DNA of 64,000 nt from Aurantiochytrium sp. KH105 (lineage: Eukaryota > Sar > Bigyra > Thraustochytrida > Thraustochytriidae), in contig BGKB01000044.1 in NCBI GenBank assembly GCA_003116975.1, forward strand, positions 74,940 through 138,939, in the 5' to 3' direction. Each line of letters starts with the position of its first letter. The first letter of the stretch is position 1. The notes under the pieces are model-generated. The model was not told where the DNA came from. It worked only from the letters and a program-made list of their open reading frames with translations, and ran no database searches. Shown piece by piece: positions 8,415-45,256 of this stretch. The position numbers and the translations under genes were made by a program.

Positions 8415-11399
8415 TTACAGCCGCAGGAGCGCGGGCGAGGGAGGAAGGTCAAGGTCGTTCGCATGACCCAGCTGCTGATGCTGCTGCAGGGGCGACAACG
8501 TGCCCTGATGCGCCACGAGGTTGGCCACGAGAATATTGTGAATGGTCCAGGGCGATTCGTTGCTTGCACGGGTCTCGAGAATACCGCGGCCGTAAGCGGA
8601 GCCCTGGTCGTTGCGCCACCAGATGCGCGTGTAGCGCGACGTCTCCGTGTAGCGGTGGCGAATTACGATTGCATTGCCGTAAACGAATGCCTGTTTGGTC
8701 AAGGCCATGGGCGTGGAGACGCCCATGAGGGGATCCCTGAGGTCAAAGGGGTGCTCCTTGCCATCAAAGACGTAGTCGATGAGACCGTCCGAGAGAAGCT
8801 TGCGCTGGAGACGGATACGAAGGGTCGTGGGCGTCTGTTCAAGGAAGCTTTCCTTTTCCATGGCGTCCAGCATCTTGGTGCGCATCCAGGGCATCTTGAT
8901 GGTGCTCATGCGGAGATGGGTCAAACGCATTGCGCAAAAGGTTTCCGGAGACCAAGGCCCGTTGAGATCCGGCTCGCCGTTGGGGTCGAGGCCGATCCAC
9001 GGCTCGGAGGGGTCATATTGAGTATACCTTTCAATATCGGACTTGGGGAGGCGGACGGCGTGGTCAATGAGGTTGTCACGCGGGGATCCCATGACGGTGG
9101 CAGCATCGCTGGGCGAGTAGACCTCGATACGAAGGCGCTTGGAGAGGCCTTCGAGTCCCTCGAGCACGTGGGGCTCGACGCGACGAGGGCGCTTGAGACG
9201 GTTTGCGTCTGTGCTGCACGAGTCAACGAGATCGAGAAAGACCTGGCGCACCCTGCGCTCGGGGTTTTTGGAATCCTTGAGCGGGGCCGTGCCGTACTTG
9301 CGCTGGTCCATGGACTTGTCCTCGGCCACAACGCCATTTTCCGAACGGATGGCGGCCTCGGCATTGCTCTTGGCGATTTCGGCAGCTGTGGTCTGGAGCT
9401 CCTCGATTTCGGTGAGAGTCGACCCGTTTTCCTTGAAAAAATTGTGCAGGTATTGGCGCACGGCATCGAGGAAGCGGCCGTAGCCCACGTCAATGCTCTC
9501 ACCGCGGTCACGGCGGTAGGCAATGTCCTCGCAGACGTTGGTAATGTGCTCGGTGAATGCGCTTTCACCGAGGACGTGGCGTGCGAGGCGGCGGAGGATG
9601 CGCTGCAGACGTCGCTGCTTTTCAGCAGCCTGGGCTTCTGCACCCTTGTTGCCGGCTGCGTCGTCTGCAGAGGCGGTGGCGTCTCCATTGGTTGCTGATC
9701 CGGGAAGGGAGTCAGTGACGCTCCCGGGAGAGGCGGGCGTGTCGAGGTCGGAATCCGCGAGCGCGCTGGGGTCCTGAGCCTTTTGGAGGAGCGTAGCAAT
9801 GTGGTACAAGAGTGTGGCCGGAGAGGTATTGGGCGTCGAAGTTCCCATGCGGCGAAAGCGCTGGCGCCGGCGGCAGTAGAGCTGAAAAGCCGGGCTGGAG
9901 AACTTGCCGACGCAGCGGATGTTGTCGCCGCTTTCGACTACGAAAATGTAAACGTTAAAGACGTGCAGGGTGTCACACGTGTACTTTGTGGCGACCCAAT
10001 CGTAGTGCCAGCCCTGGTGCTCCTTGCTGTTGAACTTGAAGTCGATGAGCACCGAGTCGTTCTCAGCCGAGGGCGCCGTCTCCTGGCAGCTTGGGTACCA
10101 CGGCGCAAGAGGGCGGCCCCTCTTGCGCTCCTTGGCCTGGATGGCCTCGAGCGAGGCGAGGCTGCCGATCTCGACATCCTTGTAGAGGCCCAAGGCGGTG
10201 TCGAAGCGGCCAAAGGCAACGAATTGCGGGGCGCCAGTGCCGGCCTGGGGCTGAAGCTCGCATGCGGATGGCTTGTACGATGCGTGAAAGGTGATTCCCT
10301 GACCGCAGAACTTGCGAGGCTGGTGCGTGGGTCCACAGTTGGGGAAGCAGCGAAGGTTCTTGAGACCGGAGCACTTGTTGTTGCGCTGGTATCGGTCGAC
10401 AAAGAGGTGTTCGTCGAAGGAACCGTAGAGAATTTCCTTTTCCAGCATCATTGTAGGGTCAATAACATTTTGATGCTCGGCGGCGGAGGACTCATCGAGC
10501 GAGAAGTCCTCGTTAAAAGCGTGCGCGTCCGCATCTGCGCCAACGTGAACGGCGGCTGCAGGCGTTGCGGTGGCAGAGGGTTCACCATGGGCGCTGTCCG
10601 CGAAGAAGTCACCTCCGTCCTCAATAGGCAAATCGTCCTGGTAGGTGGCGGAAGGCGGGGGTGGCGGGGTGTGATGGTGATGGCCTTGACCGTGCTGGTG
10701 CGACAGCTGTCGGTGTTGTTGTTGTTGTTGCTGCTGCTGCATGTGACGAGAATTGTGGGGAAGCGGTCGGTTCGCCGAGGCGTCCTCGACCTTGACGTAT
10801 GGAGCGTTCGAGGCTGCACCGCAGCAGCAGCGGCAGCACGAAGATACATTTGCCACGGGGGCCATATGTTGCTGCTGGTGAGGGGGCAGACCTGGTGGAG
10901 GTGGGGGCGGCACAGCCGCTGAGACTGATGGGGAGGGCGAGAAGGAGGAGTTGGGCGTTGCAAAGTCGCTGTCAAAATCGTCCTCGCTTTCTTCGCTCAA
11001 ATGGTGCGCGCTTGTCGCATTGGAGCCATTGCTGCTGCTCCTGCTGCTGGTGCCGTTGTTGTTGTTGTTCCCGCCATATGGTTCATCAGGCCACATAATA
11101 TCGAGGGGCTCAAGGCCGTCAAAGTCGGGAAAGATTTCCTGCAGCGACGAGTTGGCTTCGTTTAGGCTGAGCAGGGAGAGCATGACCTTGTCGAAGCCGG
11201 CGCCTCCAGGCGGCGGGTTAGCGTGCGTCGTTTCCGCCGCCGCCGCTTCCGCCACCGTCTCAGGCGCTCCCTCTGCCTTCGTCTCGCGGGCTGCCTCCTG
11301 TTGTGGCGCCCAGTTCTCCTCGCCGCCTACGCTCGCAGGTCCTTGCGGCGTGGGGTGGGTCTCCTCCATCTTGACCTTTGTGTCGGCGACCATGTCCAT
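8415..11399 (-). CDS. Transcription-factor-like protein with CFPxC domain and poly-Q/N/P tracts (994 aa)
   Basis: I start at ATG 11399 (MDMVADTK). The frame is open further upstream to 11921, but that extension is Arg/Ser/Ala low complexity and has no ATG between 11400 and 11921. The N-terminal third is acidic with poly-N, poly-S, poly-P and poly-Q (near residues 80-260), like an activation region. A compact domain spans about residues 325-510, beginning with a KNLRCFPNC motif (Cys351) and ending SSPAFQLYCRRRQRFRR. A second conserved-looking block occupies the C-terminal 220 residues. The first domain recurs in the gene at 26376-29687. The overall look (basic closing strand after an all-beta stretch, Q/N-rich flanks) recalls p53-like/immunoglobulin-fold DNA-binding proteins, but that is inference. 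The TAA stop lies inside GTAAGTA, a consensus donor, so a further 3' exon is possible. Confidence 0.75.
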   Translation of the reverse strand: MDMVADTKVKMEETHPTPQGPASVGGEENWAPQQEAARETKAEGAPETVAEAAAAETTHANPPPGGAGFDKVMLSLLSLNEANSSLQEIFPDFDGLEPLDIMWPDEPYGGNNNNNGTSSRSSSNGSNATSAHHLSEESEDDFDSDFATPNSSFSPSPSVSAAVPPPPPPGLPPHQQQHMAPVANVSSCCRCCCGAASNAPYVKVEDASANRPLPHNSRHMQQQQQQQQHRQLSHQHGQGHHHHTPPPPPSATYQDDLPIEDGGDFFADSAHGEPSATATPAAAVHVGADADAHAFNEDFSLDESSAAEHQNVIDPTMMLEKEILYGSFDEHLFVDRYQRNNKCSGLKNLRCFPNCGPTHQPRKFCGQGITFHASYKPSACELQPQAGTGAPQFVAFGRFDTALGLYKDVEIGSLASLEAIQAKERKRGRPLAPWYPSCQETAPSAENDSVLIDFKFNSKEHQGWHYDWVATKYTCDTLHVFNVYIFVVESGDNIRCVGKFSSPAFQLYCRRRQRFRRMGTSTPNTSPATLLYHIATLLQKAQDPSALADSDLDTPASPGSVTDSLPGSATNGDATASADDAAGNKGAEAQAAEKQRRLQRILRRLARHVLGESAFTEHITNVCEDIAYRRDRGESIDVGYGRFLDAVRQYLHNFFKENGSTLTEIEELQTTAAEIAKSNAEAAIRSENGVVAEDKSMDQRKYGTAPLKDSKNPERRVRQVFLDLVDSCSTDANRLKRPRRVEPHVLEGLEGLSKRLRIEVYSPSDAATVMGSPRDNLIDHAVRLPKSDIERYTQYDPSEPWIGLDPNGEPDLNGPWSPETFCAMRLTHLRMSTIKMPWMRTKMLDAMEKESFLEQTPTTLRIRLQRKLLSDGLIDYVFDGKEHPFDLRDPLMGVSTPMALTKQAFVYGNAIVIRHRYTETSRYTRIWWRNDQGSAYGRGILETRASNESPWTIHNILVANLVAHQGTLSPLQQHQQLGHANDLDLPPSPALLRL

Positions 11400-12375
11400 C
11401 TTGCCGCTTCCTTTCTGCCTTTGCGCTCTGGCTTCCCGAGGCGGGCTGCGGCTGCGGCTGCGGCTCCGGCTGCGGCTGCGGCTGCCCCTGCTTGCTCGCT
11501 CGCTCGCTCGCTCGCTCGCTCGCGCACTTGCCGTTTTGCTCGGCGTGTCGATCGCGCGAGCGCGTGCGCGGGCGGGGGTTCGGCCGGCGGGCCCAGGATA
11601 CCGCTTCTCCTTCCTTCGTGCTCGGCCCGACCGAGTGTGACGCAAAGGACGCGGAGGAAGAAAAGAAGGAGAGAAAGAAAGAAAAAGAAAGCCAAGGCTT
11701 CCTTTCGCTTTCGTCCAAACGCACGCAATCAATGAATCAATGAAATGAATGAATGAATGAACGATCGATCGATCGACCGCTCCTCGATTCTTTTCGCAGG
11801 AACCCGTCGCGGGCGCCGCGCTGGCTGCGGAGGGGATGAAGGATGGAAGGAGGCGGGGGAGGGAGGACCGACGGGTGCGCCCAGCAGCAGCTGCAGCAGC
11901 ACGAGTCTCGCCCGCTTGCAAAGGACGGAGAGACGCCTGCTGGACCGCCCGCTGCCTCTGCTTGCTCGCCTTTCTTTATTTCAAAACCAACCTCGCGAGG
12001 GAGGCCCCTCGCGCTCGGGCTCCACGAGGCGCGGCCTGACGCTGCGTCAAGCTAGGTCCGTGCTCGGGCGTGGTCTCGCTCGAGGCGCTTGAGCGAGCGG
12101 GCGCTTGGGCGAGCGGTCGATCGATCGACCGATCGATGCGCGATGCAGAAAAAAAAAACGCTGGCCCAGGCGTCTCCGTCCGTCCGTCGGTCCGTCCGTG
12201 CGTCCGTCGCAGGTCTCCCGTGCGCGCGGGCGCTTGCGGCTGCGGCTGCGGCGGATGCTCTCGCTCTCGCTCCCGCGCTGCGCTCGATCAGGTTTTGCGG
12301 CGCCCGCGCGGCTGCGCTCGGCGCTTCTCTTGTTCGCTTGCTCGCCGGTTTCTTGTTTGCGGCGGCTTGTGGCGC
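11400..12375 (-). promoter_or_regulatory. Probable long AUG-free 5' leader of the gene at 8415-11399
   Basis: Reading 11400-12375 by eye, I find no ATG on the minus strand (no CAT on the plus strand) over about 976 bases, while the plus strand has about ten ATGs. This asymmetry fits selection against upstream AUGs in a minus-strand leader. It contains CTCG tetranucleotide and GAAAG-type tracts. Confidence 0.4.
11492..11524. repeat. (CTCG)n tetranucleotide repeat
   Basis: Uninterrupted CTCG repeats in the presumed leader of the CFPxC gene. Confidence 0.9.
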
Positions 12376-26375: not shown

Positions 26376-29300
26376 ATGCAGCCTGACTTGCTGCCGGCCG
26401 GGGAGAGGGACTTCGAAGGGGACGGGGAGGTGTTCTTCTCTCCGCTTGACGCGCCGTTCTCGCCGTATACGTTCTCGGACTACTCCGGTGAGCATAGCGA
26501 GTACTTGACATCGCCTGCTTCCGGAGGCGAAGTTGGCAGTGAGCACGATTCACGACAGGACCTGGATTCGCAGCTTCAGATCCAGCTACAAGACCAACAT
26601 CACTATCCGTACCAGCAGTACCAGCAGCCCTATCACCATCAGCATCAGGACGCATCGGGATTTTTGCCCCCCAAGCTTGGGACTCAAGACCAGACTCATA
26701 TCCCGGGCGAAGAGGTGACGTCCATGGACAACGATGCTCACGGAAACAGCGGGATTCATCGTCCAATCATCGAGGAGCAATACGACCACGCCTTTGACGA
26801 CATCATAGATCTTCTCGACGATGACTTGACAGCCTTTGAACGCCAAGGCGAGCAACTAACTTCCAGCGTTTCAAGCGCCGGGCCGACCCCCAACAACATT
26901 GGTGCCGGACTCTTTGATCACAATCATCCTTCGCACAGCCATCCCTCGACGGATCACCTCTCACTGGACTTTCAGGGCTTTGACGCTAACGGAGCCCAAG
27001 TAGATTTGCAGCATGCGCGGTCTCAAGACGACAAGGCGCACGCAGGTCTCTTGACGTATGCAGCACCATCCTTGAGCATTTCAAGCAAGAGTTTCGAGTC
27101 GAAGCGTTCTGATAGCGAGGGTCGCGTTCCCGTCAAATACGAGCATCAATCACTCGCGCCGGAGGGCCCAATCTCGATGCCGGATACACAAGGAGAACTA
27201 TCAAGGGAACACGCCACGCTTGGCAATGGCAATGGCAATGGCAATAGCGATGGGCAGACCGACTTTTTCGAAAACCTTGAATACGTTCTCGATCCTTACA
27301 TTGATGAGCCCGGGGCTGCTCCATACGGGTCAGAACGTTCTTCCGCACAAGCGCCAACGTCTTCGTCCAGCGCCATGCATGGTCCGAGCTCGTCTTCCTC
27401 CTCCTCCTCCTCCTCTTCTTCTTCTTCCTCTTCTCTCTCTACATCCTCGGCCATACCCTCGAAAATGCCTTCGCCCCCGGCACCGCCGCCGATGATCCGG
27501 TCTCGCGAGGTCTCCGAAACGAGCGAGGTATCTATGCCTAGACAACCAGAGCCACTCGAAGATGCTGTGGGATCCTCGGCGCAACTGTCTTTCAGGTCAA
27601 GCTTTCACCCCAAGTACTGGCGCAACGACCGCAAAAATCTGCAATGCTTTCCGATGTGTCCCGAATTTGGCGACTATTATACAATGCGCGTCACAGGACA
27701 ACGCCACAGCATCAGTGGGGGAGGCACTTGCAGCAGCAAAGTTGAGGCCACGCTGAGCGGCGCAAATGTGGATCTGCAGCGGGTCACAGCGCTCTCGCGC
27801 ATTGATCTTGCGACGCAAGACGGACGCTTGACGTCCATACGACCTGGCATGGTGCTGAGCTCAGACAGCTTTCAGTCGCTCGTCAAGCACTGTCTACGGG
27901 GAAGAGTGGAGGCGCAATCCGACGGTAGCGCCCTCCTCACCTTCAAGGCCACTTGCTGGAAACTTAATGTCACCTTGTCCAAGAAGCGAAGACCAAAAGA
28001 CAAACCTGATCTCGCTCCAAAATATTCCTTTGAAGTGATTTGCGCAGAGCAACTTCCGGATGGATCAATGAGAATCATTTCAAACGTTCTCTCACGATAC
28101 TTTTGCATTGCTAGCACGCGCACGCTGGCTCGCGAACTCGAAGCCTCGCAATCTACTGGAAAGAGCGTTGGAAAGGGATCCGTCTCGCCTAGCTCATCAT
28201 CAAGTCGAGGACCCAAACGAGCACATGACCCTGGTGACGAATCCGAAACGTCAAAGCGGTCCCGTCCTCTTGCGCAGGAGGAGAGAATGGAGTTTAACAG
28301 CGTCGAGCATACGCATGATATTGCTCCACTACCTGTACAACGACAAACGGAAGAGCGTGTCGGTCGCGCGCACAATGTCTACAAGGTACAAGAGCAGACC
28401 TTGGAGGTCGATCGCGGACAGGACAAGGCTGGGACCCCACGAGCTTTTGGCGAGCCTGTTTCACCGGGCAGCGACGATGAAGCAGAAGACGGAAACGATG
28501 GTTTGGGCGAGCATGATGGTGAGGAGGAGGAGAAGAAAGACGAAACGGACAGAGAATTGGATTCGAAGGACGACGACTGCTCCGCGCGTGGGTCGGAAAC
28601 AAATGCAGACCAGGATCAAGAAGATGAATCAAGCGAAATGCGCGAAATACAAGGAGGCGCAACTGGCGCAAGGGCGGCTGCCAACATCACTCGGTACCGC
28701 AGCAGTGGCGGCAACCTTAAAATTGACAGTGACAATACTGAAGAGGAGATCCGGGCAAGCGTCAAGACGCCGACCTCGCCCCTTCAAGATGAACACGATG
28801 GAGGAGATTGTGAGGAGCGTATGCAGACGGGTCTCACGGCCATCGCGGCTCGTCCTGCTAATGTTGAAGATACAGAGTACCCTCTAGCAAACGTGACTTC
28901 GGAGAATGCTGGATTGTCACAGCGCCATTCTAGTATCCTCATGCAGGATCCACGCCAGCCTGTGCATCCCTTGATCATCGAAGATGCAATGGTGAGCCCG
29001 TCCGAAGAGCACAGCGTTGTGGTCGCGTACTTGTATTGCTTCTTTTTTGGTATCTTTGGCGCGCATCACTTTTATCTCGGAAGGACCTCCTGGGGTATCT
29101 TTTACGCATGCACGCTTGGCATCATGGGTCTTGGCTGGCTCTTTGATATGATTCGTATGCCTTCTCTCGTGCAACGCGTGGACAGTGGCGATATGGCGCC
29201 TTGCTCGTTGCAAGAGACCTATGTGCTTTGGCTTACCTTTGGCTGCTTTGGTGCGCATCGCTTTGCGCTTGGCCATTACAAGTGGGGATTGTACTATCTA

Positions 29301-29687
29301 TTTACAGTAGGTGGCCTGGGCCTAGGTTGGCTTGCGGACGCCTTCCGATTGCCAGATATGCATCACGCAATGCTCGTTCGGGGCGACCACTATGAACGGG
29401 ACTATTCACTCGTCGACGCTTACATTCTTTGGCTTCCGCTCGGTCTCTTTGGCGCTCATCGCTACTACATTGGCGACTATACGTGGGGGCTGGTGTATAC
29501 GTTCACTTTTGGCCTTTTGGGCATTGGTTGGATCCAAGATGCCTTCCGTTTGCCGGATATGATTCGCTCTAAACAGCAGATGCTCGAGTTGCAGCGTCGA
29601 CCTCCGACGCTGGCTCAAGATCGGGATCATCATGACGGAGGAGGTCTTGCCGCGGGTGGAGATATTGAAATGCAGAACTTGAGCTAG
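26376..29687 (+). CDS. CFPxC-domain protein with three C-terminal TM2 domains (putative membrane-tethered regulator)
   Basis: The protein is 1103 aa. The N-terminal 400 residues are Gln/Ser/Asp-rich with a poly-Ser run. A domain at about 410-590 starts F-x3-YWRNDRKNLQCFPMC and shares the KNL-x-CFP-x-C core with the gene at 8415-11399. It is followed by a Ser-rich and then strongly acidic linker (about 590-860). The C-terminus holds three TM2-like hairpins at about 882-935, 947-996 and 1015-1064, each with the GxFGAHxxxxG and (D)xxRxPDM-type hallmarks (FFGIFGAHHFYLG, GCFGAHRFALG, GLFGAHRYYIG). TM2 units span membranes twice. A soluble domain resembling a regulator, placed N-terminal to a membrane anchor, suggests membrane retention and perhaps proteolytic release; that is inference. 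No intron seen. Confidence 0.85.
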   Translation: MQPDLLPAGERDFEGDGEVFFSPLDAPFSPYTFSDYSGEHSEYLTSPASGGEVGSEHDSRQDLDSQLQIQLQDQHHYPYQQYQQPYHHQHQDASGFLPPKLGTQDQTHIPGEEVTSMDNDAHGNSGIHRPIIEEQYDHAFDDIIDLLDDDLTAFERQGEQLTSSVSSAGPTPNNIGAGLFDHNHPSHSHPSTDHLSLDFQGFDANGAQVDLQHARSQDDKAHAGLLTYAAPSLSISSKSFESKRSDSEGRVPVKYEHQSLAPEGPISMPDTQGELSREHATLGNGNGNGNSDGQTDFFENLEYVLDPYIDEPGAAPYGSERSSAQAPTSSSSAMHGPSSSSSSSSSSSSSSSSLSTSSAIPSKMPSPPAPPPMIRSREVSETSEVSMPRQPEPLEDAVGSSAQLSFRSSFHPKYWRNDRKNLQCFPMCPEFGDYYTMRVTGQRHSISGGGTCSSKVEATLSGANVDLQRVTALSRIDLATQDGRLTSIRPGMVLSSDSFQSLVKHCLRGRVEAQSDGSALLTFKATCWKLNVTLSKKRRPKDKPDLAPKYSFEVICAEQLPDGSMRIISNVLSRYFCIASTRTLARELEASQSTGKSVGKGSVSPSSSSSRGPKRAHDPGDESETSKRSRPLAQEERMEFNSVEHTHDIAPLPVQRQTEERVGRAHNVYKVQEQTLEVDRGQDKAGTPRAFGEPVSPGSDDEAEDGNDGLGEHDGEEEEKKDETDRELDSKDDDCSARGSETNADQDQEDESSEMREIQGGATGARAAANITRYRSSGGNLKIDSDNTEEEIRASVKTPTSPLQDEHDGGDCEERMQTGLTAIAARPANVEDTEYPLANVTSENAGLSQRHSSILMQDPRQPVHPLIIEDAMVSPSEEHSVVVAYLYCFFFGIFGAHHFYLGRTSWGIFYACTLGIMGLGWLFDMIRMPSLVQRVDSGDMAPCSLQETYVLWLTFGCFGAHRFALGHYKWGLYYLFTVGGLGLGWLADAFRLPDMHHAMLVRGDHYERDYSLVDAYILWLPLGLFGAHRYYIGDYTWGLVYTFTFGLLGIGWIQDAFRLPDMIRSKQQMLELQRRPPTLAQDRDHHDGGGLAAGGDIEMQNLS

Positions 29688-30905
29688 CTTGCTTGCATTT
29701 CTTTGCTTTTGTTGTTGTTCTTTTACCTTGAGCACGTGTCATGAATCTGTATTTCTACTTTTTGTCTTGTCGATTGAATTTCTAGTCTCTCTGGCAATCC
29801 TCGCAAGCGAGCTGTCCAACAGTCGCGCGCAGTTTGCTCGCCGAGATTTACTTTTTCACATCCCCCGATTGCTATGGTAGTGTGTGTCCTTAATGCGCAA
29901 GAGTTGGGCGCGGGCCCCGAGCGTGGCATGGGTTCTCCGATCCCGTCCCGGTCTCGGTCTCAGGGAGCCCGACGCGTAATCGTGTTTGTATTCTGTTGTC
30001 TGATGTCTGTCTTCGTGCCGTGCGCCCTTCACTACAATCCCGCCAGACCCATTCATTCATTCATTCCTTCATTCATTCATTCATTCATTCACTGTCCATG
30101 TTTCCCATCCCAGCTGCCCCCCTCACTCCTCTCCCGCCTTCCTCGTCAAGCTCCCATTTCTCCTAGATCGTCGCCCCTTTCCTCTCCGCAGACGAGGTCC
30201 TCCACGTCGCCCTCGCTGGCCGTCAGCCGCCCCGGCTCCGCCCCCAAGGGCCCAACCCTGGAGCGGCCGCTCGTTTACTCCCGCTGCTGCTGCCGCCGCT
30301 GCTGCTGCCGCCGCTTCTGCTGCCTCCCGATGACGATCTCCAGCCTCGGCTCCGTCCTCGGCTGCTGCAGGGGCTGCGCGAGCGGGAGGCCGAGGCCCGC
30401 GACACCGGCCTCGCCGTCGACGTTGGCCTCGTCGCGGTGCGTCTGCATTGTGTGCCTGCCTGTCTCGTGCGACTGCGCTGGTGACTCCGTCTGCTGTCTG
30501 AGTATGTATGGCAGGCCTAGTGTGTATGACAGAGCGACCAGGATCGCTTCGGGCGGCAGAAGCCCAACGACCGCAGCACGCCGCGGCCGCCGCGCGAGCG
30601 AGCGAGCGAGCGAGCGCGCGAGCGAGCGCGCGAGGGAGCGAGCGCGGGGGCGAGCGCGGGGGCGAGCGCACGCCCGTCCGCCCGCGCGCGCGCCAGGCCC
30701 GGCCCTCCTCCCCGCGAGCGGGATTTCGAGCGACGAGGAGGAGCGCGGCAGCGCGCTGGTGGGCGTCGGCCTGTACGAGGTCGCCTTTGGAGGCAGGCGA
30801 GGCGAGGCGGCCCGCGCGAAGCCAGCGCAGCGCAGGCGCGCCGGCCTGTCGTCCCCGGCCGCCCGCCGCAGCCCGTCGCCGCGCGCGCCCGCGGAGGCAG
30901 CCAGC
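29688..30905. other. Intergenic region and leader upstream of the RBBP4-fusion gene
   Basis: The frame of the downstream gene is open back to 29874, but this stretch is low complexity and contains an ATTC tract. After ATG at about 30528 no plus-strand ATG occurs until 30906, which I take as the start. Confidence 0.45.
30050..30090. repeat. (ATTC)n tetranucleotide tract
   Basis: About ten ATTC units with one CTTC variant. Confidence 0.9.
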
Positions 30906-31013
30906 ATGGAGGCGCCCGCGCCCGTGGACGCCGCGACGGCGCCCGAAAAGGTCGACGAGGAGGCGAAGACCGAGGCCGAGAAACTGCCGCCGCAGGCCAA
31001 CCAGGGCCAGCAG

Positions 31014-31049
<36 letters not shown>

Positions 31050-31289
31050 GAGGAGCAGCAGCAGCAGCAAGAGGAGAAGGAGAAGAAGAAGGAGGAGGAC
31101 GAGGTGGCAGAGAAGCCCACGGCTGAAATGCAGCCCGTGCAGCAGGAGTCGCAGCAGCAGGAAGAAGCGGAGAATGGCAACACCGGCGAGACCGAGGTGC
31201 CGACGAGCGCCCCCGCGGTGGCAGAGTCCACAGAGAGCAAGGCAAACGTCAGTGGAATGGCCGGGCCAGGGGACGCAGGAAAAGAAGAC

Positions 31290-31321
<32 letters not shown>

Positions 31322-34300
31322 AACCGAGGAGAAGATGAGTGAGGATAAAATGGAAATTAGTGAACCCAATGGCGAAAAAAATACAGAGCCCACCGATAGC
31401 GTGTCCAAGAACGTCGAAGCTGTCCCAGCGCCAAAAGAAACTGCTGGCAGCTCGCAAGCAGATGAAGATCAAACGCCCTCATCCTCCGCGAAAGAAGGCA
31501 ATGCCGAGACGAGCGGGGCCGCCGCAACCAAAAACGACGAGGTGGATGAGGAAGACGCCGGAGACCTGGCTGGTGTCGAGACAGTGGATGGGGGTGACAC
31601 CAAATGTCTCTGTGAGCTCATTGATACAAAGTCCCCTGCAGGTCTCTGCAAGTGGGCAGAGGAAAACGCCATCAAGGGTGTTGATGGCGACGTCTTTGCT
31701 CAGTTCGAGGGCAAGATGTTGACGCTGCCGGCGCCCGGCACGAAAAAGGAGGGCGTAGACCTCCGCGCCGCGTGGACAGATCAGCTCGGCATGAAGGAAG
31801 ACGAGCTCAAGGCTCTTGACTCGCCGGCGCTGCTTCGGTGGACGCATTTCCCCGCCATCCAGTTCCAGCTCTCGAGCAAGCGGCCGTGGCGGCTTCTGCC
31901 GACGGTAACGCGATCGCCATCGCACTCGAACTCGCAACTCATCATGGCTGGCCCAAACTTTGGTCGAGGTGTTCCAATTCCAAGTCAAAAGCTACACACC
32001 AAGATGAAGGTCATTAGTCTCTCTGTGCGATTGAGTAAAAAACTCAAATTCCACGCACGCCAGAAATTGCGCGAGGAGGGAAAACTCAAGCGCAAAAATG
32101 TCGATCTCAAGCGCAAGGCCCGGAAAAGCTTGGGGAGCGTGGCTGATGGCGACGAGGATGAGAATGAGAACGACGGGCCCATCAAGAAAAAGGCGAAGCG
32201 CAACAGCTCGGATCGTCGCATGTATCACAACCACAACATGTGCATTTGTGAACTCTTGACAACCTCAAGCAAGCCAGGCCAGTGCCGCGTTGTTGAGCCG
32301 GCTGTTGAAGATCTCGGTTATGGGCGTCTCGGGGGCCTCATGTCCCAGCTCCCACGGCCCTCCGCCACGGTTGGCAATATCAATGTGCGCGAGCGTTGGC
32401 TGGAGCACCTAGGCATCACCGAGGCGGAGATCCAGGAGCTGAACCGCTCGCACATCCAGGTTCGATGGACGCACTTTCACCCATACTTTTTCAACAAGGG
32501 AGCAAAAATGCGCCGTCTACAGCATACCGTCAAGGTTGTCCCCGAGCACGCACCCGAAGACATCATCGCGTTGGGCCCGCATCGCGGACGCGCTGTTCCT
32601 GTGCCTTGCATGAAAATCACAGGCGACAAGGTCGAGTTCACAGAGCCCCCACGTCCGTCCGAAACCGACTCTGTGGCGGACCAAGAGGGCGCAGAGGACA
32701 ACTTGTTTGGCAGCGAGAGCGAGGGCGAAGACCAGGATGCTGACTCGGATGACTCGGACGGCGAGCAACCCGGGAAAACCAACGGAAGCGTGTCGACCCC
32801 CGTGCCGAAGAAACGCAAAATGTCCATGGATAAGTCGTCCTTGCTGGGTAGCGGCAGTCGCGCGCGACGCACGCGCAGCGGACTCAACTCGGGCCCCATG
32901 TGTGTTTGCGAACTCTTGCCGTGCACACCGCCTGCAGGATACTGCAAGATTGTCGAAGGTGAGGCCGCGGATAATGGCCTCACTTGGTTAGAAGGCCTCA
33001 CGATCCAACTCCCTGCCCACGGTCAGGAACTAGGTGGCATCAAGCTTCGCGACCGCTGGTTGGAACACTTGGGCATCACAGATGACCAGATTGAGCAGCT
33101 GAACCGCAAAATGGTCCATGTGCGCTGGACGCATTTTCCCGCGTCCTTTTTTCGCCTCATTGGAACCCGGAACCGTCAGCTGCGGCGGCTGCGGAAAAGC
33201 GTTCCCGTGCATCCTGGACATGTTCTCGCAGATACGATTACGGAAACCATGGCCATTCCCGTGCCATGCGCCAAAATTGGACCCGAGTATCCAGCGCCCT
33301 CTGCAGAGGACGCACCGGCGCCAAACGTGTTTGCGCTGAAGGAAGGTGCTCCGGCAAGGGACGCCGACTCTGTCAACGAATCGGCCTCGCACGCGGATCG
33401 CATGGACGATATGGACGACAGAAGCGCAACTCCTGCGGGTAAACCGACGCGCGACGTGCGCTTCAAGTATCGAAAGAGCAGTTGCATTTGCGAGCTGATC
33501 CACATTTACTCGCAGCCTGGCTTGTGCAAGGAAGTGGAGCCCCGTCTCGCCGCAAATGGAAACGAGTGGCTCGAGGGGCTCTCGGTTCATCTTCCCAAGC
33601 CAGAGACGACGCGTAACGAGATCAATATGCGCGAGCGCTGGCTTGCGCATCTTGGCATCACCGAAGAACAAGTCGACGCGCTTGGGCTGCGCAATGTTGA
33701 CGTGCGCTGGACGCATTTTCCGCCCCGATTTTTTACCCTTACGGACAAGAATATGCGCAAGCTGCAATTCATGGTAGACCCCGAAAAACGCCATCACGAC
33801 GAGGACATTGCACCCTATGGCAGGTACCGCGGCCTGGCCATTCCGGTTCCCTGTGTGAATCTCGAAAAGGATTTGGGCGACCTGCCCGAGTTGGCGCCTC
33901 CGTTGCTGCCGGAGAGCACGACCCGTGCCAACGGAACGCCGGCAGATCACTCGCGGACCACAACGCCCGTGCCAATGGCGAAACGGCTTGGGGCCTCGGC
34001 TGCCGACGACGTCGCCGACGATGCGAGCGGGGTGCGCGGCACGGATAGCAATGCCGGCGACGGTACTGGGCCGTCGCGGCATTACAACACAGCATCGTGC
34101 GTCTGCGAGCTGGCCCCGTGCAAAAGTCCAGCAGGCATGTGCCGCGAGGCAGAAGGTTTGCTTGCAGCGCGAGGCTTTGAGTGGCTCGCAGGTACGATGT
34201 CTGCAATCCCCAAGTCAAACAGTGTCAAGAGCGGCGTCAAGCTCCGGGAACGCTGGCTGGCGCACCTGGGTGCGGACGAAGACACGCTTTCGAGTCTTCG

Positions 34301-36002
34301 TCGCAAAGACATTTACGTGCGGTGGACGCACTTTCCGCCAAAGTTCTTCAAAAAGGGCGGCAAGATGCGCAAACTGCAGTTTACCGTCGAGCAGGACGAC
34401 CGTCATGAGCCAGATGACATCATCAAGTTCGGGCCGCATCGCGGTCGCGCCATTCCGGTGCCTGTGGTGGACATTCAGGCGCTCATGGACGAGGCCGGCC
34501 CCGGTGAGGTCGCTGCCCTGGCAAGCGAAGCCCGGGCCACGTTTGCCGGGGCCAATGGTGCAGCAGAACCCTCGAGTGCTACGGTGATGCGCGCACGTAA
34601 GACTATGCGGAATGGATCTGCGGGCGGTGCCATGGCGGCTAAACACGGATCTATGACATTGGCAGAGATGGTGGCAGCGACCGAGGAGGACGACAACGAG
34701 GATGCACGCTCACTCTCGTCAACCGGCGACGAGGAGCTGCCCTTAACGCGAGGTGAGCGGGAAGCTCGCCTCAAAGACATTTCCTCTGGGGCAGCTGACG
34801 CTCTTCCTAATCCGGCGGATGTCACTGAAGGTGAGCGCAATGAGGAGTATGTCCTTTGGGCCAAGTATGCACCCCTCATGTACGATTTTGTCATCACGCA
34901 ACAATTCTCTTGGCCTGCTCTGTCGTGCGCGTGGATTGAGATGAATGAGGTGACAGCTCCTCGGTCAGCGTTCTGGACGGGTGCAAATCGTGGCGATGGA
35001 AGCAAGGGCGACGAGATTGCCATCACTTCGGTGCAGCTTCCTCGCGAAGGGGCGCATGGTAGCGCCCTTGAAGATGAGGCGGCCTCGGCCTCGTCGTTTT
35101 GCGGGTCGTATCTGGGCGATGTCGAATACGGAGCTCGCTACCGCATCGGAACGGACATTCACCGCATTCGTACAATGCCGCAGGACCCGTATGTTGCTGC
35201 TTGCTTTGCAGCATCGACGGACATTCACATTGTGCGGGTAAATCCTTTTTTGACAGATGTAGTGACTGCCTTCTCGATTAAAACCGTGCACAAGGACCCA
35301 GGCTATGGTCTGAGCTGGAACAAGCTGAAGCGCGGCGCATTACTTTCGAGCAGCGACGATGGTCTGGTTGCGAGTTGGGATTTGCACCGCAAGAAGGAGA
35401 TTGTGCACTATGAGGACTTGCAAGGCGTGGCAGTGAACGAGGTGGCGTGGGTGTACCATTCCCCTCACGAGTTTGCCTGTGTCGATGACAAGGGCGTCAT
35501 CAGCTTTGGTGACGTGCGCACGTCGTCACTGGCGCGTTTTTCGAGCACCTCAGCCTCGGGCGGCGCAGAAGGCGCCTCGGTGGGAGTGAACTGTATGAGC
35601 TTTGCGCCTGCAGACGGAAACCGCCTCGTCACTGGCAACGCCGCAGGCGCAGTGGAAATGTGGGACCGGCGAAAACCGCAAACGCCTGTCTTGGTGCTCG
35701 AGCACCACAAGGATGATGTATTGGGCATCGCGTGGAACCCTAGTTTGCCGCATGTTGTGGCGTCTTGTGGCGACGATGGGCGTGTTTGTCTCTGGGACGT
35801 CAGCGGCAAGGCCGTCAGCAGCGCGGAGTTGACGGATACCAAGGACATTGACGGCCCGCCCGAACTCTTCTTTCTGCATGGCGGCCACACGGATAAGGTC
35901 TTTGATCTGGCTTGGTGCCCTGACGACCCCTGGAGCCTCGTGACAACGGCGGAGAACAATATTGTGCAGGTGTGGGCACCGGCCAAGTCTCTTCGCATTT
36001 AA
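30906..36002 (+). CDS. Five tandem CxCEL/RWTHF domains fused to an RBBP4/MSI1-type WD40 propeller (1698 aa)
   Basis: ATG 30906 (MEAPAPVDA) follows an AUG-free leader. Residues about 1-230 are Gln/Glu/Ala-rich with poly-Q and poly-A runs. Five repeats of about 125 residues then begin at Cys234, 446, 666, 860 and 1065, each CxCEL...P-x-G-x-C...LP...RxRWLxHLG...VRWTHFP...LR/LQ...AxPVPxxxI, spaced by acidic/basic linkers. Repeat 1 is the most divergent (AAWTDQLG, LLRWTHFP). The C-terminal about 390 residues match the p46/p48 histone-chaperone propeller: EEYVLWAKYAPLMYDFVI and WPALSCAWIE are the H4-binding-helix and first-blade segments, and it ends PPELFFLHGGHTDK...WSLVTTAENNIVQVW. RBBP4/MSI1 proteins are subunits of CAF-1, PRC2, NuRD and HDAC complexes in the nucleus. 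I do not recognise the repeated domain; its conserved Cys pairs may bind metal. Confidence 0.9.
31596..34476 (+). repeat. Five protein-domain repeats within the RBBP4-fusion gene
   Basis: Approximate units: 31596-31995, 32238-32618, 32898-33278, 33480-33863, 34095-34476. Repeats 2-5 share the CxCEL start, RERWL/RDRWL-x-HLG and VRWTHF cores and an Ala-x-Pro-Val-Pro end; repeat 1 keeps CLCEL and RWTHFP but has diverged most. Nucleotide identity is low apart from the TGGACGCA(T/C)TTTC core, so the duplications are old. Confidence 0.9.
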
Positions 36003-36173: not shown

Positions 36174-39100
36174 TCAGCGATTATCTTCCGAAGGCGAAGC
36201 AGCAATGCGACGGATGAGCTCATTGTAAAAGCTGTCCGTCAGGTACAAGCGACGCTGAAATGGCATGGACTCTCTGTGATCGAAGATGTGCCTGGCCGTC
36301 TCGGGGACCGTGTCAAGGTATGTTGAAAACTCTGTAAACCCCACACGATTGGGATCGCTTTCATGCACGAGCAAGATGGGCTTCTCGGCTCGCAAGGCCG
36401 TGTCGAGCTCCATGCAAACTGCATTGGAACTGAAAACTGTCTTGCTCAAAAAGAGCAAGTAGCATTTCGACGCCAGAATTCCGGCCTGCATCTCCTCTGT
36501 GGAAAGATTGCCCCTCGTTCGCTGGTCAACCCAAACATCGAGTCCGCGATTGACGAGCTTCTCGGCCATGAGATTGCATGCATCACCGGCCTCGAGCTGC
36601 TTGTGGCTCAAAAAGACGTGATACTTTAGATTGGAGGCCAACGGCAAATCGAACTTGTCGACCTCGCCCGTGTCTCTCTCGTCCTCCTTTAGCGAACCGT
36701 CTTGGAAGAACGGTGCAAAGTCTGCGACCCTTGCGATTCTGGTGCCCACCGACTTGACAGATTGAACCCCCGGGGATGTGTATGCCCGCGCAGCATTGTC
36801 GTATGCAACCAAGATAGACGCGTCCCTAGGCGACTGAAGGAGAAGCTCCCAAGGCAAATCTCGAAAGACTGCGTCGCGCGCGCCCCGAAACATGCTCACT
36901 AGCATCTTTAGCGTGGTTGCGGGCTTCTCCGAGTCGCGCTCCATGCGAATGCAGATCTTGTCCTGGGTCTGCTCGAGCGCAAACACGGAAAGACCAAAGT
37001 GGACGATGGCCTGATTTCCCGCGAGCTGAGGTGCCCGCGCTATTTCTCCAAAGTCTCCACTGTACTGAGCGCAAAGGGAGAGCAGACGAGCAAAGACGCC
37101 ATCCGGGAGAAAGAACTTGGAAAAGTCCAAAACGCATGTCATACCGGTGTTCATATCAGCAATCTCGGCTTCGAGGCTAGCGTTTGTCGAGTTCTTGAGC
37201 AGACTGCTCACCAGGTAGAGCGGCTCGCTTTGACGGCCCGTCGTGAGGACCTCTTCTGGAAACGCCCAGTCTGACATCAGCATCGTCTCGTGCATAAACG
37301 CCCGCAGATAGTCGACTTCTTCGTCATTCCACAGAAACCTCAGCAGACTGAGCGTGGCAATGCCGCGTTTGCGCAGCACCGCGAAGTCTACTTTGAGACC
37401 AGCCTTTTGAAGCTCGCGATTGTATCGCATCTGCTTGACATGGATCTTGTCCGCGATCACGCGCGAAAGCTTGTCCAGAAGCCACTGCGGGTTCAGGATG
37501 ACCTTGTCGTGCAAGGTGTCTGTTGCGCGGAGATGGACGAGCATGCCAAGCTCGTGGAAAAAGCTCAAGAGCTCGTCGGTCTGATCACCGGCGTGGTACT
37601 TGGTCGCGAGTTCTTGCGCCATACCAAAAGGGACAAAATCGCAGTCAAGCTTCAGCAGGTCGTCCAACACCTTGAGCCAGCGCAGTGAGATCTTTCGCGA
37701 GACGGTCTCGAGCGACGACGCGCTTGCTTCGACAGCAGCGCGCAATTCCGAGGCACGATTCGGCTCAGGGCTCATGTTGTCGATGGGGAAGAAGCTCAGG
37801 TTCTTCTCAGAGTTCGTGACAATGTTGGCATTCTCGTCAACAGACAGATGTTCGACGAGGATGTCCTCCACCTCGTTGACGTCAACTGACGCTTGGTCGT
37901 AGTGCGTGCCCACGAGAATGATGGGTCCAGTTGGTGCGTGCAGCTTGACCGAGTTGAGCCAAAAGGAAAGGTACGCCACGGCTTGGTCTTGCTTGATGAG
38001 GAGTTCCTGCATGTCGAAGACGACCATGAAGACGCCGCCCTCGCGCGTGAGGAAAATGTGGTGCAGCGCGTAAAAGACCTCCTGACCCGCATAGTCCCAG
38101 ATCGTAAAGAAGATCTTCTCGCCCGACTGCGTCTGGCCGGCCATTTCCTCGATCTCCGCGAATTCGAACCGCTGCGCCATCTCGGCCTCGGGCACCAGCT
38201 CCACCTGCTCCTCTGCCGCGAAGGGTCGCGCCGCGGCAGAAGAACGTCGGCGTCCAAAGACGACATTCGAAATGCCTTGGGAGACGCGCTTGGGCAGCGA
38301 TTGCCGCTTCTTGCTCGCCGCTTGCTCCTGCGCGGCCATGCGCAGCGCCGCCACGCGGCACGCCTGGCGTTCGAACCCGCTGTCGAAGTCCTTGCTCTTT
38401 TTCCAGGACTCTGCATCGGTGCGCGTGAGCTCGACGCCCACCGTTGACTTGTGCGTTGGCTCGGGCTTCATGCCCAGCAGCGAGCGCACCACGGACGTCT
38501 TGCCGGCGGCGCCCTGGCCGACGACCATGAGCTTGCAGCGGCCCAGCTCCGCGGGGTCCCCGTTCGCCAGCGCCGCCTGGAGCGCCTCCTTCGCCGCCGC
38601 AGTAGGCGCGGGGCCGCCGAGCACGTCCTCGATGGGCCGCACGGCCTCCGTGCCCCTCAGCACGCGCGTCGAGGCGCCCGTCTCCGCGTCCCAGATGCGC
38701 ACGCTCAGGTCCCTAGATCCGCTCACGATCTCCGACCCCAAGAGAGAGACCGAGTCCACAACGCTCGAGTGTCCTTGCAAGACGTGCAGCGCGTCTCCGC
38801 TGCGCGCGTCCCAGACTCTGACCGTGTAGTCCTGGGACCCGCTCACGATGCGGTCTCCCTCGAGCGCGACAGAGAGCACGTAGCTGGTGTGTCCTTCGAG
38901 GACGCGGACGAGCTGGAAGGAAGGCACGGCGTAGACCCTCACCTTCTTGTCGTGGGACCCGCTCACCATGCGCTGCGCGTCGATCGCGACCGCGTAGACA
39001 TAGTCTGTCGCCTCCGTGAGGACGTGGCGTGGGCCGCCGCTGGCCCGGTCGAAGACGCGCACGGTCTCGTCTTGCAACCCGGCCACGAGCAGGTTCTCGT

Positions 39101-39530
39101 GGGCGGCAACGCCGTAGACCGACGCCCCGGCGTCGATCCTCAAGGTCTCTCGGCCGCTGATCTTGTCCCAGACGCGGACGGTCTCGTCGTTGTACTCGCC
39201 GCCGGAGATGAGCTCGTAGCTGCCGGAGATGATCTCGTTGCCGTCGAAGATGACGCTCAAGACATCGCCGGTGTGGCCCTGGAGGGCGTGCAGGACGGAG
39301 GCGGTGGCCAGGTCGATCAGGAAGAGGCCGCCGAGGTCAGTTCCCACGGCGGCGAGGTTGCCCTGCACGGCCACTGTTTTGGCCGGCATGTTGTTGGGCG
39401 TCTTCATCTCCAAGACGAGGGCGCCGTCCTTCTTGCTCCATGCTCGTAAGTACGCGTCGTCGCGGCTGGCGGCCAGCACGAGGTCGGCGGACTGCGCGAC
39501 GCCCCACACGTAGCCTCGGATGCGGCCCAT
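36174..39530 (-). CDS. WD40-Roc-COR-TIR protein (ROCO-family, innate-immunity-like receptor)
   Basis: The protein is 1118 aa, starting at the first ATG (MGRIRGYVWGVAQ); the frame extends upstream to 39971, but without ATG and as low complexity. Residues about 15-290 form WD40 blades (repeated SGSxDxTVRVWD). A Roc GTPase follows: P-loop VGQGAAGKTS (337-346), switch-II WDYAGQE, and GTHYD in the position of the guanine-specificity motif. A long basic insert (about 375-440) splits P-loop from switch II. A COR-like region covers about 560-850. The C-terminal TIR domain begins YHVFLSHKQ (970), continues LDVWVDQR, and carries CMELDTAL with Glu1041 where catalytic Glu sits in NADase TIRs. This suggests a sensor-GTPase-effector chain, but neither ligand nor activity is shown by sequence. 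It is convergent with the RBBP4-fusion gene, 171 bases between stops. Confidence 0.92.
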   Translation of the reverse strand: MGRIRGYVWGVAQSADLVLAASRDDAYLRAWSKKDGALVLEMKTPNNMPAKTVAVQGNLAAVGTDLGGLFLIDLATASVLHALQGHTGDVLSVIFDGNEIISGSYELISGGEYNDETVRVWDKISGRETLRIDAGASVYGVAAHENLLVAGLQDETVRVFDRASGGPRHVLTEATDYVYAVAIDAQRMVSGSHDKKVRVYAVPSFQLVRVLEGHTSYVLSVALEGDRIVSGSQDYTVRVWDARSGDALHVLQGHSSVVDSVSLLGSEIVSGSRDLSVRIWDAETGASTRVLRGTEAVRPIEDVLGGPAPTAAAKEALQAALANGDPAELGRCKLMVVGQGAAGKTSVVRSLLGMKPEPTHKSTVGVELTRTDAESWKKSKDFDSGFERQACRVAALRMAAQEQAASKKRQSLPKRVSQGISNVVFGRRRSSAAARPFAAEEQVELVPEAEMAQRFEFAEIEEMAGQTQSGEKIFFTIWDYAGQEVFYALHHIFLTREGGVFMVVFDMQELLIKQDQAVAYLSFWLNSVKLHAPTGPIILVGTHYDQASVDVNEVEDILVEHLSVDENANIVTNSEKNLSFFPIDNMSPEPNRASELRAAVEASASSLETVSRKISLRWLKVLDDLLKLDCDFVPFGMAQELATKYHAGDQTDELLSFFHELGMLVHLRATDTLHDKVILNPQWLLDKLSRVIADKIHVKQMRYNRELQKAGLKVDFAVLRKRGIATLSLLRFLWNDEEVDYLRAFMHETMLMSDWAFPEEVLTTGRQSEPLYLVSSLLKNSTNASLEAEIADMNTGMTCVLDFSKFFLPDGVFARLLSLCAQYSGDFGEIARAPQLAGNQAIVHFGLSVFALEQTQDKICIRMERDSEKPATTLKMLVSMFRGARDAVFRDLPWELLLQSPRDASILVAYDNAARAYTSPGVQSVKSVGTRIARVADFAPFFQDGSLKEDERDTGEVDKFDLPLASNLKYHVFLSHKQLEAGDACNLMAEKLVNRGLDVWVDQRTRGNLSTEEMQAGILASKCYLLFLSKTVFSSNAVCMELDTALRAEKPILLVHESDPNRVGFTEFSTYLDTVPETARHIFDHRESMPFQRRLYLTDSFYNELIRRIAASPSEDNR

Positions 39531-40017
39531 GGCGGCGGCGGCGGCGAGGGGAGCGAGGGCGTGCGGGCGGGCGGGCGGCAAGCGGCGCGAAGAAGCGGCG
39601 CGAGCGAGCAAGCGGGTGCGGCGGAGAGGGGGCGAGAAAACAGACAGAGAGAGACAGACTCGGGGCGAGGGTAAGGAAGGAAGAGCGCGAGGGGAGAGCC
39701 TGGCTGGGCTGGCTGCTGCTGGCTGATGCGATGCGGCCTTGGCGCGTTCTCCGCGGGGGGGCGCGCGCGAACGGAGCGTGTCGCGGCGGCGCCCGCGCGG
39801 AGAGGGGAAGGGGGGGGGAGGAGGGAGGGGGTGGCTGGCTTGCTGGCTTGCGCGCCTGCCGCGCCTGCCTGCCGCGCGCGCGAGGGCGAGAGCGAAGGGG
39901 AGAGGTGTTAGGTGTTTGGGCGAAGGCCGAGCGTGTGCACGCGCTGGCACGCGCGGACGGTGCACGCGCACGCCAAATAAAAAGAAATAGGCTTTCTTAC
40001 TTCTTCATATCAGTCAG
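39531..40017. other. Leader/promoter region of the ROCO-TIR gene
   Basis: No minus-strand ATG from 39531 to 40005, fitting a 5' leader of up to about 475 bases. Purine-rich GAGAG/GGGAGG tracts. No gene. Confidence 0.4.
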
Positions 40018-42736: not shown

Positions 42737-43675
42737 TTGAACCCAAGGACGGGACCTCTTTTGAGGATTATTCTCTTCCCCCATCCTCTTCAAAGTTCCC
42801 TTCACCAGTGTAAGGGAGAAGGTGGGGGAGGGGTGGGGGGTTAGGGCCGTGGCACAGTGGCTGCAAAAAAAAAGGCACAGCGACTCATTCCAATAAGAAC
42901 CATTGCGCTTTGTAGTAGGTAGTAGCGCAGAAGTACACGCAAATGTCACGTCTTTGTCGCCGCGTCTCGTAGCCAGCGACGGTCCTCCCCAATTTTTTTT
43001 TCACGCGAACTTTCGCGCGTAGCTTCGTGCTTCGGCACGACTGTCTCACAGTTAAAAACAAGTCCTTTTCTTCGCCTTTCCGTGTCCCTTGCTTTGTTCT
43101 ATGCCTTGTTCCATTGTCGAATTGAATTCCATCGCAATGGATCGGATCGCCAAAGTCCCCCAACTCTGTCAGTATTGTGCGCCATGTTTGGCATTTCTCA
43201 TCAGAGCTGTCGGTCGACGACAATGCCACATTCTCCCTTAACGCCGTAGCCAACGTCCACCTGACCCCATCTTCCCCTTCGACCATGTCTTCGACCAAGT
43301 CTTCGACCACGTCGTCCTCTTGTGCTAGCGCCGTGCAATGCTTGTCCACGATCGCACCATATCCGCGCTCGAGCCATTCCCCGCGTAGGCCTGCATCCTT
43401 TCCGCCCCCTCCTCGGCGCACCGCCGACCCCGCCCGCGTCCGTCCACGCCGGCCCTGTCGCGACCTGCTCTGTCGCTCTGTCTGTCGTGACCTGCAGTGC
43501 GAGCAAGTCCGCCGCTTTGCTTTGTCCGACGCCCGGCTCGCCGTGTCGTCCCGGCGCGCCAGACCCGGCCTCGGCAGACCCGCATCGCGAGCGAGAGCAG
43601 CTTCGCGCGGGAGCAAGGAGCAGCTCAGCGGCGGCGGCAGCGGCGACGCGGGGAGCTCGAGGAGCCAAGACCAAG
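42737..43675. other. Intergenic region between ZZ/SEC-C and cytochrome b5-ACAD genes
   Basis: It includes the 3' flank of the ZZ gene and the 5' region of the b5-ACAD gene. A minus-strand frame from ATG 43286 to 42885 (134 codons) has mixed, non-repetitive composition and might be a gene or the end of one, but I recognise nothing in it. Confidence 0.4.
42885..43286 (-). CDS. Uncertain 134-codon frame, hypothetical
   Basis: Starts MVEGEDGVRWTLATAL and ends TYYKAQWFLLE. Unlike most spurious frames here it is not low complexity. The same frame is open upstream to 43616 without another ATG, so it could be a terminal exon. No domain is recognised and it overlaps the presumed promoter of the b5-ACAD gene. 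Confidence 0.2.
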   Translation of the reverse strand: MVEGEDGVRWTLATALRENVALSSTDSSDEKCQTWRTILTELGDFGDPIHCDGIQFDNGTRHRTKQGTRKGEEKDLFLTVRQSCRSTKLRAKVRVKKKLGRTVAGYETRRQRRDICVYFCATTYYKAQWFLLE

Positions 43676-45256
43676 ATGGCCGAGACGATCTCGCGGGCAG
43701 AGGTGAAGAGACACAACAAGGAGGAGGACGCGTGGATCGTGATCAATGACTGCGTGTACGATGTGACCAAGTTCGCGATGCTGCATCCCGGCGGGGAAAA
43801 GCTGCTCCTGCAGTACGCCGGAGAAGACGCGACGGAGGACTTTTACGGGCTGCACAAGCAGAGCGTGCTGGACAAGTTCGGACCGCGGCTGCTCAAGGGC
43901 AAGCTGCCGGCGACGGAGGCCCCCGTGGAGACAAACGAGGCCGATGGCGTGAGCGCGTGGGGGAAAATCTCAAAGGTCCCGTACGCCGAGATGCCTTACT
44001 GGCGCGGGTGGAAGTCGCCGTACTACAACGAATCGCACGTTCGCTTTCGCAAGTACGTGCGCGAGTTCTACGACAAGGAAGTACGCGAGATCGCCGTGAA
44101 CGGCGAGACAACGCACGAGGCGCCCTCGCTGGAACTCATGCAGACAATCAGCAAGGCAGGCCTGATGCACACGCAGCTGGGCCCCGGCGAGCACCTCAAC
44201 TTGCTGCCCATGCCGGCGGGCCTCAAGCCGGAAGAGTTTGACTACTTTCACTCCATGATCTTGCACGAGGAAGGCGCCCGTGTGATGGCACCTGGTTTTT
44301 TCGATGGCATTTACGCGGGTTTTACCATTAGCGTGCCTGCTCTGCTGCATTTTGGCACAGAGAAGATGAAAAAGACGGTGCTGCCCGAGATCCTTGCAGG
44401 CCGCCAGCGCAGTTGCCTGGCCATTACCGAGGCCTTCGCTGGATCCGATGTTGCCAACCTTCGTACCACCGCCACCAAGTCCGCTGACGGCAGCCACTAC
44501 ATTGTCAATGGCACAAAAAAGTGGATCACGAACGGCACCTTTGCGGACTATGCGGTGACAGCGGTTCGGACCGGCGGTGCCGGCGCCGGCGGTGTTTCAA
44601 TGCTATTTATTCCGCTCAAGTCCGAGGGCGTCAACGCCAAGATCATCAAGGCAGCGTACAGCCATTCTGCGGGCACCTCTTACTTGACGTTCGAGAACGT
44701 CAAAGTGCCTGTTGAGAACCTCATGGGCAAGGAGAATCAAGGCTTTGCCCTGGTGATGGCCAACTTCAACATGGAGCGTCTTCATCTCGTCCAAGGTGTG
44801 GTGGCCTGTATGCGCTACGTCACCGAGGAGTGCTTCAAATGGGCGACGCAACGCAAGGTATTTGGCAAGCCCCTCATGCAACAACCTGTCATTCGCAAGA
44901 AGCTGGGCTGCATGATCGCCGATGTGGAGTCTTGCTCGGCGTGGCTTGAACTGGTGACTTACCAGGTCCAGAACATGAGTTTCGAGGAGCAGAACCGCCA
45001 GCTCGGTGGTACAATTGGTCTTCTTAAATACCAAGCCACCACCGCCGCGCAGAACGTTGCGCGCGACGCTGTTGAGATCTTTGGCGGTCGCGGTCTCACG
45101 CAGACCGGTATGGGACGTGTCATTTCCTGCTTCCATCGCACCGTCATTGGGCCCCATATTTTTGGTGGAGCAGCTGACGTCGTGCTTGATCTCGGTGTTC
45201 GTCAGGCCGTCAAGGCCTTCGCGCCGGACCTCGACTCTCCAGAGAGCAAACTCTAG
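43676..45256 (+). CDS. Cytochrome b5 / acyl-CoA dehydrogenase fusion (526 aa)
   Basis: The start MAETISRAEV follows CAAGATGG; the frame upstream to 43322 is low complexity. Residues 5-75 are a cytochrome b5 domain with heme ligands His37 (HPGG) and His60 (GLHKQS). Residues about 115-515 are an acyl-CoA dehydrogenase: ITEAFAGSDVANLRTTA (FAD/substrate loop), KKWITNG, the RKVFGKPL helix and EIFGGRGLTQ near the C-terminus. The position that holds catalytic Glu in medium-chain enzymes is Gly497 (IFGGAAD), while Glu367 (NMERL) occupies the alternative site used by long-chain and isovaleryl enzymes. It probably oxidises an acyl-CoA, with the b5 domain as intramolecular electron partner; that electron path is inference. 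No clear targeting signal is visible. Confidence 0.93.
   Translation: MAETISRAEVKRHNKEEDAWIVINDCVYDVTKFAMLHPGGEKLLLQYAGEDATEDFYGLHKQSVLDKFGPRLLKGKLPATEAPVETNEADGVSAWGKISKVPYAEMPYWRGWKSPYYNESHVRFRKYVREFYDKEVREIAVNGETTHEAPSLELMQTISKAGLMHTQLGPGEHLNLLPMPAGLKPEEFDYFHSMILHEEGARVMAPGFFDGIYAGFTISVPALLHFGTEKMKKTVLPEILAGRQRSCLAITEAFAGSDVANLRTTATKSADGSHYIVNGTKKWITNGTFADYAVTAVRTGGAGAGGVSMLFIPLKSEGVNAKIIKAAYSHSAGTSYLTFENVKVPVENLMGKENQGFALVMANFNMERLHLVQGVVACMRYVTEECFKWATQRKVFGKPLMQQPVIRKKLGCMIADVESCSAWLELVTYQVQNMSFEEQNRQLGGTIGLLKYQATTAAQNVARDAVEIFGGRGLTQTGMGRVISCFHRTVIGPHIFGGAADVVLDLGVRQAVKAFAPDLDSPESKL

Follow-up and report, generated by a model that had tools for sequence, protein, structure and literature searches.

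The question raised by this locus is what a protein might do that ends in a chromatin-type propeller and carries five copies of another module in front of it. The window, a 64,000-nucleotide stretch of contig BGKB01000044.1, encodes such a protein at 30906–36002 on the forward strand. RBBP4/MSI1 proteins normally stand alone and have about 400 residues, whereas here the propeller is the C-terminal part of a 1698-amino-acid chain. The repeated module, which the first-pass annotation of the sequence had called an undescribed domain, is a divergent THAP-like domain, and the propeller is of RBBP4/MSI1 descent. We consider it probable that the whole acts as a multivalent DNA-binding adaptor holding an RBBP4-derived scaffold at chosen loci, with both the DNA binding and the partners being putative.

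The gene lies in a single open frame (29874–36002, forward strand) with an ATG at 29874, and the methionine codon at 30906 gives the 1698-residue protein, which is arranged as follows:

30906–36002, forward strand: whole gene, single frame, 1698 amino acids; also found in the second haplotype and in an orthologue, P0003
30906–31586, forward strand: N-terminal low-complexity segment rich in Q, E and A (residues 1–227), probably disordered
31587–32006, forward strand: THAP-like domain 1, which diverges most among the repeats (31–36% identity to the other four)
32223–32630, forward strand: THAP-like domain 2
32883–33290, forward strand: THAP-like domain 3
33465–33875, forward strand: THAP-like domain 4
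34080–34487, forward strand: THAP-like domain 5, the modelled repeat (predicted local distance difference test score, pLDDT, 90.0)
34842–35042, forward strand: RBBP4-type N-terminal helix region (residues 1313–1379), Pfam CAF1C_H4-bd, 38.0 bits against a cut-off of 22.7
35043–35990, forward strand: remainder of the RBBP4-type propeller (residues 1380–1695)

The repeats are each about 135 amino acids long (residues 230–366, 442–574, 662–794, 856–989 and 1061–1193) and show pairwise identities of 31–47%, far above chance. Five tandem modules in one frame had been proposed from shared motifs, and these are confirmed apart from a few minor deviations, of which repeat 1 has the most. CxCEL is present in all five repeats, RxRWL in four (repeat 1 reads RAAWTDQLG instead), the exact VRWTHFP in three (LRWTHFP in repeat 1, VRWTHFH in repeat 2) and the A-x-PVP end in four (GVPIP in repeat 1). 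An NCBIfam search with the whole protein gave no match.

As RBBP4 is normally a stand-alone protein, repeats and propeller could be two genes or transcripts that merely share a frame, or could have been joined by assembly. The allele on contig C122 specifies the fusion too, with 1690 amino acids, and an orthologue, P0003, which has 1697 amino acids and comes from a 5645-base contig, includes five repeats and the propeller in the same order. An assembly or gene-model artefact is ruled out by these two copies. The linker motif LTRGEREAR, directly N-terminal to the propeller, is also conserved in P0003, and we regard two separate products as very improbable. Separate transcripts, which the first-pass annotation had named as a finding that would overturn the fusion, are argued against by the identical architecture of P0003.

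The two haplotypes differ at 91 synonymous and 32 non-synonymous codons, plus 8 gapped codons. Synonymous and non-synonymous differences number 33 and 1 in the five domains (675 codons), 19 and 6 from residue 1307 onward, and 39 and 25 in the rest; most of the amino acid changes fall in low-complexity-type sequence. The THAP-like domains are under purifying constraint. Between the window protein and P0003, repeats 1–5 are 57, 72, 80, 79 and 75% identical to their counterparts, while every other pairing of repeats, whether inside one protein or across both, gives 28–52%. Since counterparts are more alike, the five-part order is older than the separation of the two species, and the repeats have been maintained individually. 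Identity between the two proteins is 68% for the propeller, 28–49% for the five linkers, and only 27% for the N-terminal segment over 180 aligned residues.

Such domains are not confined to this gene. Single-protein queries of the 76 Mb genome (367 contigs, largely two haplotypes judging by paired matches) gave at least 11 in five genes per haploid set: five in the window gene, three in one gene on contig C28, and one each on C76 (allele on C14), C89 (allele on C18) and C17. Among the genome matches listed, there was no allelic copy of the three-domain paralogue, L011, or of the C17 gene. Besides THAP, the L011 protein (2498–5095, forward strand) matched nothing in Pfam at E 0.1. The genome also has weakly matching pieces, among them one at C175:23616–23951 (E 7.9e-4) that is interrupted by three stops and is perhaps a decayed copy. 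Two outside members, P0003 and P0002, were found among 5.8 billion protein sequences in searches that were word-limited, length-limited and in some cases scored only a portion of the candidates, so that relatives may have been missed. P0002 is a relative of the C76 protein (43% identity over 366 aligned columns). None of the 24 pattern stretches in viral contigs or the six in prokaryote genomes was confirmed as a relative.

Alignment of the 11 genomic domains gave the invariant columns C7, C9, E10, C21, E25, P44, R56, W59, L63, G64, H84, F85, L99 and P128. Nine THAP domains aligned separately have invariant C5, C10, P26, W36, C54, H57 and F58, in an order that matches that of the repeats except for the third cysteine. 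The three key THAP residues P, W and F (PMC6004289) correspond to P44, W59 and F85, present in 11/11 domains. In the region of the AVPTIF box, Pro128 is likewise present in all 11 and is preceded by V, I or M, with variable flanks (PVPC, VVPD, AVPD, AMPN). The repeats have in common with the THAP domain (PF05485; P-element transposase, human THAP proteins, C. elegans CtBP, LIN-36 and LIN-15B) the order C..C, P, W, H-F, Leu and box Pro. Modelling predicts the beta-alpha-beta fold of solved THAP domains, and the predicted core aligns with 70–71 of the 74 residues of 3kde.

The repeats also differ from THAP domains. They have C-x-C in place of the C-x2-4-C of THAP domains, an extra helix between the first cysteine pair and the proline that bears the invariant third cysteine, C21, and a longer stretch from the invariant Leu to the box Pro; they are also in tandem and not N-terminal. 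C21 is present in 17/17 domains when those of P0002 and P0003 are added to the 11. Position 81, the cysteine of the THAP C-x2-H, is Arg in six, Ser in two and Cys in only three of the 11 domains, and is Arg in all five P0003 repeats and Cys in P0002. The window repeats read R-W-T-H here and lack the canonical C2CH signature. We name the repeats THAP-like and not canonical THAP because they lack C-x2-H and a different cysteine is invariant. The zinc-binding unit suggested by the first-pass annotation is nonetheless a probable one, as C7, C9, C21 and H84, the putative ligands, are invariant in 11/11 domains.

With single domains, Pfam gave THAP as the sole family in three of 11, all below the cut-off (E 0.0035, 0.0067 and 0.014); the five window repeats gave no THAP match. 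With whole paralogues it gave THAP in three of four (E 2.3e-6, 0.025 and 0.07), and L011 scored 28.7 bits against PF05485, above the whole-protein cut-off of 23.9; THAP was absent at E 0.1 from the fourth paralogue and from P0003. For scale, THAP11 is recovered by phmmer at no better than E 0.055 when THAP1 is the query. A family profile run against PDB gave 10 matches, none significant (best E 0.43), among them the THAP domain of CtBP (2jm3, E 0.92), aligned from RxRWL to HF. Foldseek with model 2 gave 13 matches, none of them THAP. Genome searches for PF12017 (P-element) and PF05485 were silent, as were their controls, and allow no inference. An unrelated, lineage-specific zinc domain that came to resemble THAP by convergence in P, W, HF and the box Pro is unlikely. 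The match to a known domain that the first-pass annotation had named as counting against a new module was found in part, as a THAP-like one. SymE toxin, another candidate, was rejected: it scored 23.6 bits against a cut-off of 29 (14.9 with repeat 3 alone), over about 23 residues round RxRWLxHLG and in one of 11 domains.

Although THAP-like in fold, the repeats could be protein- or histone-contact modules that dock on chromatin proteins, making the whole a scaffold and not a DNA reader. The replacement of the C-x2-H cysteine in 8/11 domains fits this, as does the only mildly basic character of the window repeats (isoelectric points 7.9–9.3), and a THAP domain of C. elegans was suggested as a possible mediator of DREAM interaction (PMC8552245). 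However, R or K stands just before the invariant Leu99 in 10/11 domains, in a region that is basic in the P-element THAP sequence, and five copies on varied linkers suit multivalent DNA binding. We hold the contact-module explanation to be a minority possibility, somewhat ahead of convergence, and favor a DNA-contact array, which the first-pass annotation had also proposed, as a likely role.

Residues 1306–1695 match structures of the RBBP4/RBBP7/Mis16/Hat2 type (E 2.5e-65 to 2.3e-39; PDB RBBP4, E 3.6e-58), and together with the second haplotype and P0003 these and the Pfam matches bear out the proposed one-frame fusion. The N-terminal helix and seven-blade propeller of RBBP4/RBBP7/MSI1 proteins (PF12265 plus WD40 propeller) are both present, and the PP-loop DGPPEL is kept. 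Against human RBBP4 (2xu7) the fusion propeller scores 200.9 bits, with 33% identity over 368 aligned residues, while a separate 465-amino-acid frame on C139 scores 518.9 bits. The C139 frame is the canonical RBBP4 of the genome, and the fusion propeller is a divergent paralogue of it.

The R/K-peptide cleft used by H3, FOG-1, PHF6 and AEBP2 consists of Glu126, Asn128, Glu179, Tyr181, Glu231 and Phe321 (PMC6053351). Both the fusion and P0003 have D126, H128, P179, Y181, N231 and L321, keeping one of the six, although Asp248, another residue close to the cleft, is retained. Histone H4 is bound by an acidic PP loop, which in RbAp46 has Glu356, Asp357, Glu359 and Asp360 (PMC2572730), whose numbers are one lower than those of RBBP4; one of these four acids is kept in both proteins, and in place of the hydrophobic pair F-L the fusion has L-M and P0003 has I-L. 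The canonical C139 copy keeps four of the six cleft residues and three of the four acids. Of the "histone-binding propeller" of the first-pass annotation, the RBBP4 type stands, and the case for histone binding is weakened by these losses and by the ordinary RBBP4 elsewhere. That 68% of the propeller is nevertheless shared with the second species means that it retains some function.

Taken as an adaptor, the protein would present five divergent zinc modules on loose linkers as a multivalent DNA-contact array, and its propeller, having lost most of the checked histone and R/K-peptide contacts, would serve as a scaffold on which chromatin proteins dock. A single polypeptide would in this way place an RBBP4-like scaffold at DNA sites selected by the THAP-like modules with some sequence specificity, probably for repression. 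DREAM contains RBBP4/LIN-53. The C. elegans THAP proteins LIN-36 and LIN-15B act with DREAM, so that THAP and RBBP4-family parts meet at the same loci (PMC8552245). DREAM/MuvB with LIN-36 and LIN-15B brings these parts together, as here, but as separate proteins, whereas here they form one covalent chain. The wider idea, that there are non-animal THAP-like DNA-binding regulators with a rewired zinc site (C-x-C, helix Cys, His), one of them fused to an RBBP4 turned docking scaffold away from ordinary histone reading, is put forward more tentatively, with the odds slightly against it. If true, the THAP–RBBP4 partnership that is indirect in animal DREAM would exist as a single self-contained, five-site recruiter of chromatin machinery.

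The THAP reports cited here deal with animals, with one choanoflagellate gene and with transposases (PMC10027918, PMC6004289), and in PMC3537659 with animals. PMC10027918 covers THAP genes across Metazoa and gives choanoflagellates only two transposon-derived genes, of the ZBED and THAP superfamilies respectively. No fusion of THAP with RBBP4, and no other MSI1/RBBP4 fusion of this kind, appeared by title in searches of open-access papers. The present family extends the THAP fold, with an altered zinc site, to a probable stramenopile, and the tandem single-chain fusion suggests a direct link from THAP to RBBP4, making it a simple system for asking how THAP proteins engage DREAM-type repressors.

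In the adjoining gene (36174–39971, reverse strand), one 1265-amino-acid frame joins WD40 repeats, Roc and COR-A to a TIR domain at the C-terminus (Pfam WD40 85.3, Roc 74.0, COR-A 43.4 and TIR_2 39.4 bits, all over cut-off). On the other side, 26376–29687 (forward strand) encodes a long protein whose C-terminal part carries three TM2 domains (135.2 bits) and which has a short KNLxCFPxC motif in common with the protein of 8415–11921 (reverse strand; BLASTP E 0.009 over 23 residues, possibly chance). An acyl-CoA dehydrogenase fused with a cytochrome b5 domain is encoded at 43322–45256 (forward strand). Genes of pfaD-type polyunsaturated fatty acid (PUFA) synthase scored above the curated cut-off at four places in the genome; together with the GC-rich, intron-poor genes, these make a labyrinthulomycete such as a thraustochytrid probable.
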